IMG/VR virus record: IMGVR_UViG_3300025168_000753 | Coordinates: 1-22,245 of that record | Length of the DNA: 22,245 nt | Strand: one strand, 5' to 3' | Origin: a virus | In this document: positions 2,283 to 20,119 of the stretch, in pieces | Numbering within the stretch: the stretch's first letter is position 1 | Layout of the letters: each line of letters begins with the position of its first letter | Notes under the pieces: generated by a model | What the model was told of the DNA's origin: nothing | What the model saw: only the letters and a program-made list of their open reading frames with translations | The model's database searches: none | Translations under genes and position numbers: made by a program

Positions 2283-2461
2283 TGACCCTACTGACCCTAT
2301 GACCCACCCTTATAAATCAAACACTTAGCATACCGTAGGGTCAAGGGTCACGGTGGGTCAGTCTGACCCTACCTGACCCTACCCTAAACCGCGCCACAGT
2401 AGGGGTTTCAGCTAGGTAGGGTCAATCGACTCCGTTTTTTTGACCCTACCCTTTGACCCTA
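2283..2461. repeat. TGACCCTA repeat array (candidate origin, pac or operator cluster)
   Basis: Exact TGACCCTA starts on the plus strand at 2283, 2292, 2364, 2374, 2441 and 2454, and exact TAGGGTCA lies at 2336-2343 and 2417-2424. Close variants are TGACCCA at 2300, AGGGTCA at 2344-2350 and TGGGTCA at 2354-2360, giving about eleven sites in 179 bp. Most copies continue as TGACCCTACC. Neighbouring copies within a cluster are 8-13 bp apart, near one helical turn, so one face of the DNA could carry several protein molecules. No gene covers the array. Possible roles are a replication origin (AT-rich DNA adjoins it and a primase-helicase gene is about 0.9 kb away), a terminase small-subunit target, or a regulator-binding array upstream of terS. 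The repeats are certain; the role is inference. Confidence 0.85.
2336..2386. repeat. Imperfect dyad in the centre of the TGACCCTA array
   Basis: Three copies in reverse orientation (2336-2360) face three in forward orientation (2364-2386, the last truncated to ACCCTA). The exact core is GGGTCA-GTC-TGACCC at 2355-2369. With small gaps nearly the whole 51 bp can pair with itself, so the stretch could extrude a cruciform or form an RNA hairpin on either strand. No T-tract follows it, so a simple terminator is unlikely. Confidence 0.75.
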
Positions 2462-3119: not shown

Positions 3120-3329
3120 TCAAAACTCTTTAGGCCGTATGATCCTAACCTCCTTTGAATCCTCATACCTATTGGTTGGTCCTTTATCTATCTCCCAACC
3201 CCATATGCCAGTGTCACTTCTGCTTTCCTCGAAGTATGCATTAAGCTTTTGCTCTGCTTCTTCTTCATTTTCAGCACTAACCAACATGTGAAAACTTCCT
3301 TCAACATTGACTCTGAATCCATACTCCAT
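3120..3329 (-). CDS. Hypothetical protein, 69 aa
   Basis: The start is the ATG at 3329, overlapping the TGA of the primase-helicase gene as TGATG, with GGGAG about 8 nt upstream; a GTG five codons earlier is less likely. The product begins MEYGFRVNVEGSFHMLVSA, then has an acidic helix (ENEEEAEQKLNAYFEES) and a strand-rich end with two Trp residues (GIWGWEI). The strand-helix-strand order suggests a small ferredoxin-like fold, but no family is recognised. Tight coupling to the primase-helicase gene points to a role in the same early programme. Confidence 0.7.
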   Translation of the reverse strand: MEYGFRVNVEGSFHMLVSAENEEEAEQKLNAYFEESRSDTGIWGWEIDKGPTNRYEDSKEVRIIRPKEF

Positions 3330-5359
3330 CACTCTATCTCCCACGGTTTTTTATTAGGATTGTTTTCCAGGTAATGCCAGACCGCCTTGCCTGGATCCGC
3401 ATGTGTCTTGACCACATCACCCATGTATTTCTGAACATGACTCACCGCCCTCTGAGAAGCTTTGTTACCATTAGGCATGCGAGACTTCTTCAGTGTCTCT
3501 CTGGCCAACATCTCCAGTTCGTTTCGATTGTAGAATGTAGTCAGGCTCATAGCACCCGCCACAATCTGCGCGATCTTAACCTCATCTTCCTCAGTCTTCT
3601 TGGCTTGCTTAGGGATATTGTGCGAGGTGAACTCATTCATCTTCCACATACCCTCATTGAAATCAAAACGCGCCGTGTGTTCATCAGGCTCTTTCGCATT
3701 ACGAGCTTCGTAAAAGAAAGAAACATCAGGCCGTTCACCCGCTAATTTAATACCGCTATCGAACCACCCTGCGAAAGCAGAGCCGCCTCGAGCAGACATA
3801 AAGGTTTTATCATCTGCCCTTTCCTTCCCTGTATGATGTGCGATCATGATGCTGGTGCTGTTCATCTCGATCAGCATGTCTATTCGATCAAGCAGCTTAT
3901 GAATCTCACTGTTGTTGTTCTCCTCGCCATCGAAGAAGTTGATGACTGGATCAATCATGACAATGTCTGGGTTATGAAATGCGATTTCATCAGAGATCTG
4001 TTGGATGTCTCCATCCCTCATCAGGTTCTTTCTCAATCGACCTGTGACAATCAGGTTGTCATAGCCCATAGGTATCAAGTGATCACTCGCTGCGAATCGC
4101 CGGTAATACATCTCCACCCTCTGCTTGAGAAACTCGGCAATGATTTCAGCCTGTAGCCACATCACCTTCAATGGCCGACTGAACGGGACACCCATGAAGT
4201 CTGTCCCAGTGCTGGCCCCAGCCGCGAATGCACCCAACCAGTTGCTCTTGCCGATCTTTGGCTTACCCAACAGCAGCACCCGACTGTTCTCGAAGATGAA
4301 CTTATCACCCCAGTAAAGTTCAATCTCGCTGTCATCAAGGTCCACCCACTCATCAGAGCTAAATGGTTTTAATCCCAGCGGCCCTTGTTCGGGCTGATCT
4401 ATAACCTCAATGGGATCTTCTTGAGACTGGATCTCCTTCAAATCCTGCGTAAGACCTGACTCCCAGGTAGAGGTCTCCCAACTCATAATGCCTGAGTCAA
4501 CGTCTTCAGGGTGTCGTTTGATGTGCCCAGAGGTAATGCTGATTACCGTTCTAGTAACTTCCATTAGATCCATTGGGGGGAAACAGGTTTGATTCCAGTC
4601 TTGCGCTTTGATAATGACCTCACGCATACCCCAGCCTTCCTTCACCCACTTGCCTATCAGCCTTGCCAAGGTATCGTTCCTCGAGCCAGGGTCAACCGGA
4701 TCCTCAGTGAGTTTATCTCTAACTAAGTTCTCGACCTTACCTCCTGAATTAAACTCATGGATGGCTTTTAGGTCGGTCTCTCCAAGAACGGGAAGATCTT
4801 CCATCCCATCCATGTGGTATGCGGTATCCATATCCCATCGATACCCATAGCTAGGCACGATCATGGCGTAACCACCATTTCCCCTGACATCCAGCTTGTT
4901 CTTGCCAGCACTATTCCTGACCAAAGAATTCCCCACGGAGTACAGGTAGTGAGCGCCTCCCCGAGGAGTTGTCTGCTTGATTGGAGTACGGCTGATTGCA
5001 CCGCCATCTACCCACGCAACACTCTCATCACTGTCAGCATCAACCACCACGAAGTTAATCCCTGTGATCGCAGCCCAGTTCGCTTGAGGGTATTGTTTGT
5101 GCCAGTGTTCGATCTCATCGTGAGATGGCTGTATTCTTTGGTAATGCTCCCACTTGACCCGCGGGGTCTTAGCCCATCGAGACTGTAGCTCTTGCTCAGA
5201 ATCAAATGGGTGGCGAGACCGAAAGTACTGAGGGACAACCTCTGATGGTGACCCACAAGGGATTAAGTGGAAGCCGTGCTCCCACAGATAAAAAAGTAAC
5301 TCTTCCTTGGCTTCAGGTGATACCTCACCCTCATCTTGAATCGGCAGATTAAAACCCAT
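3329..5359 (-). CDS. Primase-polymerase/helicase replication protein
   Basis: This 676-residue protein combines two domains. An N-terminal archaeo-eukaryotic-type primase-polymerase (about residues 24-200) shows VVVDADSD with metal-binding D107 and D109, the GGAHYLYS segment with H137, and the RGNGGYAMIVPS strand. A PriCT-like helical linker (about 226-280, SRNDTLARLIGKWV) follows. The C-terminal RecA-type ATPase (AAA_25/RepA-like) has Walker A GKPKIGKS at 365-372, Walker B DIVMIDPV at 465-472 and a sensor-like IAHHTGK at 506-512. Such proteins prime and unwind DNA at phage and plasmid origins. The ATG at 5359 has AAAGGA about 7 nt upstream and lies 4 nt after the regulator gene's stop, so the two form an operon. 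The match is strong; the exact subfamily is uncertain. Confidence 0.9.
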   Translation of the reverse strand: MGFNLPIQDEGEVSPEAKEELLFYLWEHGFHLIPCGSPSEVVPQYFRSRHPFDSEQELQSRWAKTPRVKWEHYQRIQPSHDEIEHWHKQYPQANWAAITGINFVVVDADSDESVAWVDGGAISRTPIKQTTPRGGAHYLYSVGNSLVRNSAGKNKLDVRGNGGYAMIVPSYGYRWDMDTAYHMDGMEDLPVLGETDLKAIHEFNSGGKVENLVRDKLTEDPVDPGSRNDTLARLIGKWVKEGWGMREVIIKAQDWNQTCFPPMDLMEVTRTVISITSGHIKRHPEDVDSGIMSWETSTWESGLTQDLKEIQSQEDPIEVIDQPEQGPLGLKPFSSDEWVDLDDSEIELYWGDKFIFENSRVLLLGKPKIGKSNWLGAFAAGASTGTDFMGVPFSRPLKVMWLQAEIIAEFLKQRVEMYYRRFAASDHLIPMGYDNLIVTGRLRKNLMRDGDIQQISDEIAFHNPDIVMIDPVINFFDGEENNNSEIHKLLDRIDMLIEMNSTSIMIAHHTGKERADDKTFMSARGGSAFAGWFDSGIKLAGERPDVSFFYEARNAKEPDEHTARFDFNEGMWKMNEFTSHNIPKQAKKTEEDEVKIAQIVAGAMSLTTFYNRNELEMLARETLKKSRMPNGNKASQRAVSHVQKYMGDVVKTHADPGKAVWHYLENNPNKKPWEIE

Positions 5360-5363
5360 AACA

Positions 5364-5648
5364 CTATCCTTTTGCTTTTGCTGGTACGCCCTTCCTTTTT
5401 TCGAGTGGCCTACTCTTAGTCATCGACCTGTCTGCTGGGATTGCAATGGTGCTATGAAGCTCGTTGGCTGGACCGTATATAGACTCCCAGTTCAACTTCC
5501 CATCCGACACATGCATAAACAGCTTCGCTAATTTAACACTAGGAGATCTGTTCAGTAAACGATACTGACTAATAGATCCTCGAGGCTTGCCTGTTCTCCT
5601 GGCTACCTCATCATCACCTAACCCCCATATCCAATCTGCTAACGTCAT
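5364..5648 (-). CDS. Cro/CI-like helix-turn-helix regulator
   Basis: The 94-residue product carries a helix-turn-helix at about residues 11-35 (GDDEVARRTGKPRGSISQYR) followed by SVKLAKLFMHVSDG, the pattern of short Cro/CI-type DNA-binding proteins. The C-terminal third is basic and likely unstructured (KSRPLEKRKGVPAKAKG). I prefer the ATG at 5648, with AAGGA 8 nt upstream; an in-frame ATG at 5657 has AAGG directly against it. It is the first gene of the leftward early operon and faces the rightward operon across a control region with inverted 8-mers, so it probably regulates both. No integrase or CI-size repressor is visible, so this is not evidence of lysogeny by itself. Confidence 0.75.
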   Translation of the reverse strand: MTLADWIWGLGDDEVARRTGKPRGSISQYRLLNRSPSVKLAKLFMHVSDGKLNWESIYGPANELHSTIAIPADRSMTKSRPLEKRKGVPAKAKG

Positions 5649-5727
5649 CTTATTCATCCTTGTGCTGCCTTTATTTTTAACTCATTAGACATCAACATTC
5701 CTTTTTCTTAACATCCAGAAGCCTATC

Positions 5728-18248: not shown

Positions 18249-20119
18249 TACACGGCTCCCGAGGCATTCATGCCTTTCCTTTGAAGTTTATACATCTCTC
18301 TTGCTCCTAACCGCCTCTGCTCTTCTTTGTTGTTTTTTGGCGCACCAGCCATCTGGCCAATACCCCTTAACGCTGCTGCATTAGTAACGAATTCTCCATC
18401 GCTTAACATGGCGGGAATGTCATCAGATCTTTCAGTGCCTGGCCCAGATATCTGCCCATTCATTCTCGGATACCCGCCATTAGAAAGATACATCAATCCG
18501 CCATTAGCCATGTTTTCTTTGTTGGCTTTGTCTTTTAAAAATGCAGCATATTCTGGAACAGTCATTCCTCTTTTTGTTGCTTCTTGAAGCGCCAATAAAA
18601 ATGGATCTTGTGCTTTGTCAACAGCACCACCAATAAGGTCAAAAACCATAGAGTTAAATGCTGGACTTAGCCCACCAAATCTTTTTGAACCACTTGGGGA
18701 TTTACCTCCAGCAAAAGGATCTTGGCTTCTTCCACCCATAAGACCTGTATTCAATCCGCTTGGGTCATCTCTGAAAGAATCTAATCGATCAAATCCTTGC
18801 TCTCTAATTTTATTTGTTCTTTCTATTTCTTCTAAAATCATACGATCAATTTGTGCGCCAACATTTTTAGAAAATTCTTCTTTTTGAAGAGCATATTTTT
18901 TATCATCTTCATCACCTCTAAATGTGAATGTTTCTTTCGATTCAGGATTCTCTGCACCACGCCAACTGTTGTCTTTAAGCATTTCATCACTAACTTCTTT
19001 TTTATTTATAGACATCTTGTCTCTTAATGCATCTATTCCTTGGCCAGGAAGACCTAATATTTTTTGTACTATGTTATCGCCAGTTAACTTTCCAGTGTCT
19101 TCGTCATATTCTCTCATGAAAATATTAGGTCGGCCTTCTGCGGTCTTATCAGCCATCCTATTAAGTAAAGTTTTTAAACCGTGAGTTTTTTCCCCAGCCT
19201 CATTAGTCTTTCTCATGAGGTATCCAGGTCGGTTAGGAGCTACCGCATCTGCCGAATACTCTGTTAAATTCTTTATCATAGAAGGAATACTAGAAGATCC
19301 TTCTCCAAATTTTGGATTTAAAAACTCGCCAGCCTTACCCATGAAATCACTAATAGGTTTAACTATAGCATCGCCAATTACTGGAATTTTTTTACCTAAA
19401 GCAACTAGCGCACCAATGCCACCCCCCACGGCTTTTGAAATCATGTCGTTTAATCCAGGCACTGCGCTAAACGGAGTTAACGCAGTAATAATATTACCTA
19501 CAAGATTTGGACCTTGTGGGTTATCAAACATTCTATCTCTAACATTAAAATCTTTATACGCTGGGTCCATAGGCTGACCGCGCATATTCACATCAGGGTT
19601 TCTTATGTTTTCCCAAAGTTTCCCAATACCACCATCGGCTTTGCCATCTTGAGAATATCGAGAGGATCCAGATGAATCACTATCTCCTTTAAACTCACGA
19701 TCTGTTAAAACATTACCAAACATATCAAAAAGTTCTTGCCTGGTATAATTGATTGGCATCCCATCAATAATTGGAATTCTAGGATAATTAGGTATTTCTT
19801 CTTCAGTAGGGGTGTCTGTGGTTATTACTCCCGCATCACCAGGAATATTTGGAATATCTGGGGATCCAATGCCACCCGGAGTTGCAAAAAATCTTGGGTC
19901 GTAATTAGCGTATGGCTGACCAGCCAGCAAAGAGTATCCCGTTCCTTTAGATCCACCAGGCATATTGTAGTCTACAGGAGGCCCATCAATGCCATAACCT
20001 TGGGCCGCAAGCATCTTGTCATATTCACTCATGCCTGGAGTAAACGCACTCAAAGCATCTAAAACCTTTTGTTCACTTGCTTTTTCTATTGCACTTTTAT
20101 CGTCTTCTGTATCTGCCAT
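18248..20119 (-). CDS. Structural-type protein with C-terminal GPGTxRSDDIPAML motif, 623 aa
   Basis: The 623-residue protein has a Pro/Gly-rich N-terminal quarter, a middle with a hydrophobic segment (KAVGGGIGALVALGKKIPVIG, split here as KAVGGGIGAL and VALGKKIPVIG), a charged helical part and a C-terminal module. That module has MANGGLMYLSNGGY (from residue 537), then GPGTERSDDIPAMLSDGEF (from 559). The GxGTxxSDxIPAMLSxGEFV pattern is familiar from tail and structural proteins of many phages. The ATG at 20119 lacks a good ribosome site but overlaps the stop of a 13-codon frame as TAATG. It opens the block of four large late proteins after the spanins. A virion role is likely; the position within the particle is not shown. 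Confidence 0.7.
   Translation of the reverse strand: MADTEDDKSAIEKASEQKVLDALSAFTPGMSEYDKMLAAQGYGIDGPPVDYNMPGGSKGTGYSLLAGQPYANYDPRFFATPGGIGSPDIPNIPGDAGVITTDTPTEEEIPNYPRIPIIDGMPINYTRQELFDMFGNVLTDREFKGDSDSSGSSRYSQDGKADGGIGKLWENIRNPDVNMRGQPMDPAYKDFNVRDRMFDNPQGPNLVGNIITALTPFSAVPGLNDMISKAVGGGIGALVALGKKIPVIGDAIVKPISDFMGKAGEFLNPKFGEGSSSIPSMIKNLTEYSADAVAPNRPGYLMRKTNEAGEKTHGLKTLLNRMADKTAEGRPNIFMREYDEDTGKLTGDNIVQKILGLPGQGIDALRDKMSINKKEVSDEMLKDNSWRGAENPESKETFTFRGDEDDKKYALQKEEFSKNVGAQIDRMILEEIERTNKIREQGFDRLDSFRDDPSGLNTGLMGGRSQDPFAGGKSPSGSKRFGGLSPAFNSMVFDLIGGAVDKAQDPFLLALQEATKRGMTVPEYAAFLKDKANKENMANGGLMYLSNGGYPRMNGQISGPGTERSDDIPAMLSDGEFVTNAAALRGIGQMAGAPKNNKEEQRRLGAREMYKLQRKGMNASGAV

Follow-up and report, generated by a model that had tools for sequence, protein, structure and literature searches.

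An iteron array as the candidate replication origin of uncultured marine phages and its probable recognition by a primase-helicase

We analyzed a dense array of short repeats in a linear viral fragment from IMG/VR (record IMGVR_UViG_3300025168_000753), the whole 22,245-bp stretch of which is referred to here as the window. The array is very probably the iteron region of the phage replication origin, read by the winged helix at the C-terminus of the primase-helicase that the phage itself encodes. The array and its layout, its linkage to the helicase in two phage families, the concerted switching of the repeat unit and its covariation with two helicase residues were all obtained by computation. 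Because the repeat and the two helicase residues are swapped together, the recognition of the origin by the protein can be read off.

Organization of the array and the neighboring genes

Eight exact copies of TGACCCTA, six on the forward and two on the reverse strand, are located at positions 2283, 2292, 2336(-), 2364, 2374, 2417(-), 2441 and 2454, and the unit is found nowhere else in the window. The chance expectation is 0.52 copies per whole window, and the largest number in 100 dinucleotide shuffles was 3. Together with three further TGACCC cores at 2300-2305(+), 2345-2350(-) and 2355-2360(-), the array comprises 11 cores in about 179 bp, with adjacent copies within clusters spaced 8-13 bp apart. 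The region 2283-2461 is not covered by any ORF of 60 aa or more.

The repeats form part of a larger unit of about 2246-2502, in which an IHF-like site and a palindrome are also found, together with an inverted repeat rich in AT. Iteron cluster 1 (2283-2305, +) contains TGACCCTA at 2283-2290 and 2292-2299 and the TGACCC core at 2300-2305, and is followed by the IHF-like site AATCAAACACTTA (2315-2327, +), which fits WATCARNNNNTTR. Cluster 2 (2336-2360, -), composed of TAGGGTCA at 2336-2343 and GGGTCA cores at 2345-2350 and 2355-2360, is faced by cluster 3 (2364-2381, +), composed of TGACCCTA at 2364-2371 and 2374-2381. The subsequent spacer (2382-2416) contains in most relatives an exact DnaA box (TGTGGATAA), for which no match with two or fewer mismatches was found in the window. 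A lone reverse iteron, TAGGGTCA (2417-2424, -), precedes cluster 4 (2441-2461, +), with TGACCCTA at 2441-2448 and 2454-2461. At the edge nearest the helicase lies the flank AAAGTTAAAGTAAATTCTAGGT (2481-2502, -), which is conserved there in relatives of all classes. At the opposite edge, the palindrome CTCTCTTTAGAGAG (2269-2282) abuts the terminal iteron and is adjoined by the AT-rich inverted repeat GGTATATTTATATAGCTATATACC (2246-2269), a candidate melting or priming site. The GC content is 0.355 at 2100-2299 versus 0.505 at 2300-2499, and the single-strand DNA fold of the flank with the AT-rich inverted repeat is not unusual (z -0.75).

To the left of the array are a small ORF (1963-2172, -) and then terS (1244-1921, -). 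The small ORF encodes 69 aa and matches the SutA RNA-polymerase-binding domain (Pfam PF20661) at E 1.7e-7, which passes the cut-off, and a match of this ORF at the same place is also present in L069, L070 and L072. To the right, ORFs without a family match are followed by a 676-aa primase-helicase (3329-5359, -), the candidate initiator, which combines Prim-Pol, PriCT-1 and AAA_25 (RSF1010 RepA-like) domains with a C-terminal winged helix. The coordinates bear out what a sequence-only reading of this DNA had described, namely six forward and two reverse exact 8-mers and three variants in 179 bp, spaced near one helical turn within clusters, far above chance, in a gene-free stretch with an AT-rich flank between the primase-helicase and terS. 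The larger unit around the repeats had escaped that reading. The GC skew that the reading had proposed as a check follows gene direction, with no mark at the array, and lends the array no support.

The N-terminal part of the primase-helicase has pRN1 ORF904 as the best structural match for Prim-Pol (Z 12.9), and the middle part matches RSF1010 RepA at the domain level (1olo; VIA-align Z 11.3, rmsd 2.6, 134 residues). The C-terminal winged-helix domain (residues 583-663; 3371-3613, -) consists in the predicted structure of helices 583-602, 611-624 and 631-644 and strands 649-652 and 660-663, with pLDDT of about 80-89. These residues match winged-helix proteins with a Z of about 8, which can reflect a common arrangement, so the order of the elements was weighed as much as the match. 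Model confidence is uneven outside the winged helix (mean pLDDT 68; helicase core low), and we therefore make no claim on the whole-protein arrangement. The segment Asn632-Gln636 (NKASQ; 3452-3466, -) contains the two residues that track the iteron sequence, 632 and 636, which occupy i/i+4 positions where the third helix (631-644), the predicted recognition helix, begins.

Linkage of the array to the helicase in two phage families

A DNA-level search for the array in named phages gave no match, and the unit was therefore traced via the helicase. A dense TGACCC array is located 0.4-3.5 kb 3' of the helicase gene in many of the 80 relatives of the Prim-Pol helicase fetched from IMG/VR. IMG/VR was also scanned by DNA pattern alone, using paired TGACCCTA with no protein selection and defining as dense those loci with at least 8 cores in 250 bp. 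A helicase relative is encoded at 29 of the 34 dense-array loci versus 1 of the 85 loci with fewer cores; the pattern scan and the helicase-relative search have at least one contig in common. Two of the five exceptions represent the truncated end of a helicase from the second family (group 2, see below), two look by eye like repeats within coding sequence, and the last is L155. In L155, positions 1-450 of an AT-rich contig contain nine TGACCC cores (five TGACCCTA in 250 bp), with no such helicase in the fetched part, and the array adjoins an ORF resembling, by eye, a small terminase or a DNA-binding protein.

Two other repeat arrangements were observed at loci where no helicase relative was detected in the fetched DNA. 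Head-to-tail 11-bp repeats, TAGGGTCAcca, occur at L188:70-150, L206:2640-2730 and the end of L205. At L181:719-1010 and L201:3946-4240, two TGACCCTAat groups are placed about 230-250 bp apart and could be recombinase arm sites.

An array is present in every relative that spans the region from Prim-Pol to terS, and the 22 relatives without one end before terS. Related phages share a constant layout of ~230 bp, in which the iteron clusters are accompanied by the IHF-like site and by the palindrome beside the AT-rich inverted repeat; the flank AAAGTTAAAGT is also among the constant parts. An IHF-like site was found in 54 of the 58 related arrays (3% of shuffled sequences), and an exact DnaA box in 34 of the 58 (none in shuffles). 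The terminal palindrome stem is kept by two-sided changes in relatives (3 of 4 pairs), and RNAalifold on the flank retained only this 4-bp stem.

Group 2, which surfaced in the pattern scan, has a RepA-type helicase with a Toprim-like N-terminus instead of Prim-Pol, and its identity to the helicase of the window is about 25-32% over the helicase core. The group-2 array begins directly after the helicase stop codon, often with one to three DnaA boxes beside it. Of the 116 distinct group-2 helicases, 97 are followed by a unit that recurs at least five times in the 420 bp downstream of the stop codon, compared to 6 of 485 shuffled stretches. The alignment columns that best follow the unit, 620 and 616, are in the same C-terminal domain. 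Named phages of this group include Alteromonas PB15 and XX1924 (GGTTCA), Idiomarinaceae 1N2-2 (GGTACA) and Salicola CGphi29 (GGGACA); in PB15 the array falls within record positions 19538-19990. The array does not appear in the annotation read for PB15, XX1924 and 1N2-2. The result is a testable candidate origin, with its candidate initiator, for a set of marine phages that are uncultured and, via group 2, for isolated phages such as these three.

Concerted change of the iterons and two helicase residues

With TGACCCTA as the only query, the array seemed to be missing from many relatives, and absence from all close relatives was among the outcomes that the sequence-only reading had named as refuting it. 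The absence is only apparent, and the relatives in question carry the same layout at the same place with all iterons changed together. The iteron units observed include TGACCCTA, TGCACCTA, TGCCCCTA, TGTACCTA, CATACCTA and TATACCTA, and the cores in close relatives are GGGTCA, GGTGCA, GGGGCA, GGTACA and others. A distant Prim-Pol subclade (L365, L377, L380, L386, L390, L392, L413) has a TGCACAAC-like unit with at least five repeats in 250 bp. On a tree of the helicase without its last 90 residues, the iteron class switches at least 22 times.

The extent of such a replacement can be seen in the relatives L311 and L056, which differ at only 12 amino acids in the compared stretch, 11 of them within the last 77 residues. 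At the DNA level, most of the helicase gene is 96-99% identical in the two, and the final 300 bp have values of 0.86 and 0.80. The DNA that separates this C-terminal segment from the array is mostly 91-98% identical, leaving aside gene-content gaps, and identity drops once more at the array, starting some 0.4 kb ahead of it. When all close pairs are considered, C-terminal domains of different classes share 86% identity and those of one class 92%. Extra GGGTCA copies (GGGTCAaacagg...GGGTCA) were observed just upstream of the array in L034, L049 and L064, as well as in the class-A L051 and L025, even where the own iterons are GGTGCA or GGGGCA; they may be remnants of a former type.

For every shared protein, the alignment columns were compared one by one with the iteron class. 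Helicase residues 636 and 632 are the sole outstanding columns, with normalized mutual information (nMI) of 0.73 and 0.68, respectively (58 loci), against a 99th percentile of 0.45 for 481 columns; with permuted class labels the value never exceeded 0.29. In a core written as GGxyCA, residue 636 goes with the third base (x = G: Gln 26, Arg 9, Lys 1; x = T: Met 11, Lys 10, Gln 1) and residue 632 with the fourth (y = G: Glu 17, Gln 2; y = T: Asn 20, Asp 6, Gln 1, His 1; y = A: Val 8, Gln 2, Leu 1). Among 88 pairs with at least 93% N-terminal identity, which are not mutually independent, all 54 class-different pairs differ at 632/636 and all 34 same-class pairs agree. For pairs that are independent and lie on supported branches, residues 632/636 follow the class in 9-10 of 10 (p 0.004). 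Given the switches on the C-terminus-free tree, the independent pairs and the close pairs, relatedness does not, on these alignments, explain the residue-iteron association.

The two-residue rule was fixed on the first 58 loci and then applied to five more arrays, all belonging to a single clade. It made one prediction, which was correct, and abstained on four loci with new residue pairs. A rule on residue 636 alone, stated only after these arrays had been seen, holds for each of the five (GGGGCA with Arg in three, GGTGCA with Met and GGGTCA with Gln in one each). The same pairings in a held-out clade of different background support causation. Some matched initiator-iteron pairs have proteins that are 98-99% identical outside the binding domain. 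We propose from this covariation that the C-terminal domain of the helicase specifies the iterons.

From the combined observations we infer binding, melting, priming and the start of replication at the array, which may proceed as follows. The C-terminal winged helix of the Prim-Pol/RepA-type primase-helicase would bind the TGACCCTA sites, with recognition-helix residues 632 and 636 reading bases x and y, the third and fourth of the core GGxyCA. Host IHF, together with DnaA in most relatives, would probably help and shape the complex. The RepA-like helicase ring would then assemble at the palindrome and the AT-rich inverted repeat and open the duplex, and the fused primase would lay the first primers.

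Alternative explanations, significance and comparison with known systems

The sequence-only reading had left origin, packaging and transcription-control roles all open; the origin is now supported, with its binder named by covariation, and the other two roles are disfavored. It is very unlikely that the array serves in packaging, as a pac or cosB-like site to which the small terminase would bind together with IHF, as at lambda cos. Lambda cosB likewise combines repeated binding sites with IHF, IHF-like sites are present here, and the array of group 1 (the Prim-Pol family) never lies more than a few hundred bases from terS, so that position alone does not decide against packaging in that group. 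However, the array goes with the helicase in the second family, where in Alteromonas PB15 it follows immediately on the 3' side of the helicase gene, with terS some 6 kb away. The terS columns also do not follow the iteron class (best nMI 0.39), and DnaA boxes, which are found at the array in most relatives, are not known to have a role in packaging. We give similarly little weight to the array being mainly an operator, through which early transcription would be under the control of the primase-helicase or of some other regulator of the phage. The site spacing would suit cooperative binding, and initiators often repress their own promoters, but the array is located beyond the 3' end of the helicase gene, as much as 3.5 kb away, and not at its promoter. 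Moreover, the class-tracking residues sit in the helicase, and few of the relatives with an array were found to have the helix-turn-helix gene at 5364-5657. The array might have a secondary regulatory role.

There is also a slim chance that the array is an origin whose iterons are read by another protein, either a host factor or an unlisted phage protein, the helicase residues varying merely as passengers of the same recombination tract. The array and the helicase C-terminus are linked within a few kb, and co-transfer is therefore possible. This would not account well for L311 and L056, in which the intervening DNA is mostly 91-98% identical and the drop is mainly at the end of the helicase gene and at the array, nor for the same residue-iteron pairings in separate clades and the location of 632 and 636 on one face of the predicted recognition helix. 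Recognition by the winged helix of the primase-helicase is thus the explanation that we favor.

More tentatively, and with somewhat less than even confidence, we suggest that the co-circulating phages represent replication-compatibility types kept diverse by selection, in which a type change is the concerted replacement of recognition helix and iterons following a simple residue-to-base code. The high switching frequency points to selection on replication specificity itself. If this is true, possible causes are the avoidance of cross-initiation of origins in mixed infections and the escape from origin-targeting parasites or defenses; origin-directed nucleases against satellites are one known cause of such selection, having been described to select for iteron change in Vibrio satellites (PMC8263062). 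The many natural matched initiator-iteron pairs make the recognition code testable with natural variants.

Phage-encoded initiators with type-specific iterons are known from lambda (O/ori) and the satellite P4 (alpha/ori), although O is an unrelated initiator and alpha is an SF3 helicase. In SaPIs and in SCCmec Cch2, an initiator helicase reads iterons 3' of its gene via a C-terminal domain (PMC7581432), and PICIs have element-specific iterons and sometimes a fused pri-rep (PMC6092414). In these islands, iteron sets are arranged around an AT-rich region, and pri-rep is followed by ori and sometimes terS (PMC7581432, PMC6092414). The system described here resembles them in having an initiator helicase, C-terminal iteron recognition, iterons downstream of the gene and element specificity of the iterons. 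It differs in that the helicase is AAA_25/RSF1010 RepA-like (RecA fold) and not a SaPI-type Rep, that it belongs to a tailed phage whose window is without island genes, that the array is also accompanied by IHF and, in relatives, often DnaA sites, and that switching occurs between near-identical phages.

The oriV of RSF1010, as summarized in PMC4234260, combines a RepA-type hexameric helicase with iterons and short inverted repeats for priming. The RepA-type helicase (at the domain level), the iterons and the inverted repeats are shared, but RSF1010 has separate RepA, RepB' and RepC, whereas here iteron binder, helicase and primase are one ORF, with a primase of the Prim-Pol (group 1) or Toprim (group 2) kind. 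The pRN1 initiator ORF904 is likewise a Prim-Pol protein with a C-terminal winged helix and an origin 3' of its gene (PMC4234260), but its helicase is of the SF3 type and its origin is a 100-bp stem-loop with no iterons. In geminiviruses, the short iterons vary from one close relative to another and correspond to residues that set the specificity of Rep (PMC12548392), although these are rolling-circle ssDNA plant viruses with an unrelated protein. In a full-text search of open-licence papers for TGACCCTA, the matches listed were all unrelated. The kind of system is already known from SaPI/PICI, P4, RSF1010 and lambda O, while this class of helicase, the concerted switching at such frequency and the residue-to-base code appear to be new with respect to the open-licence literature covered.
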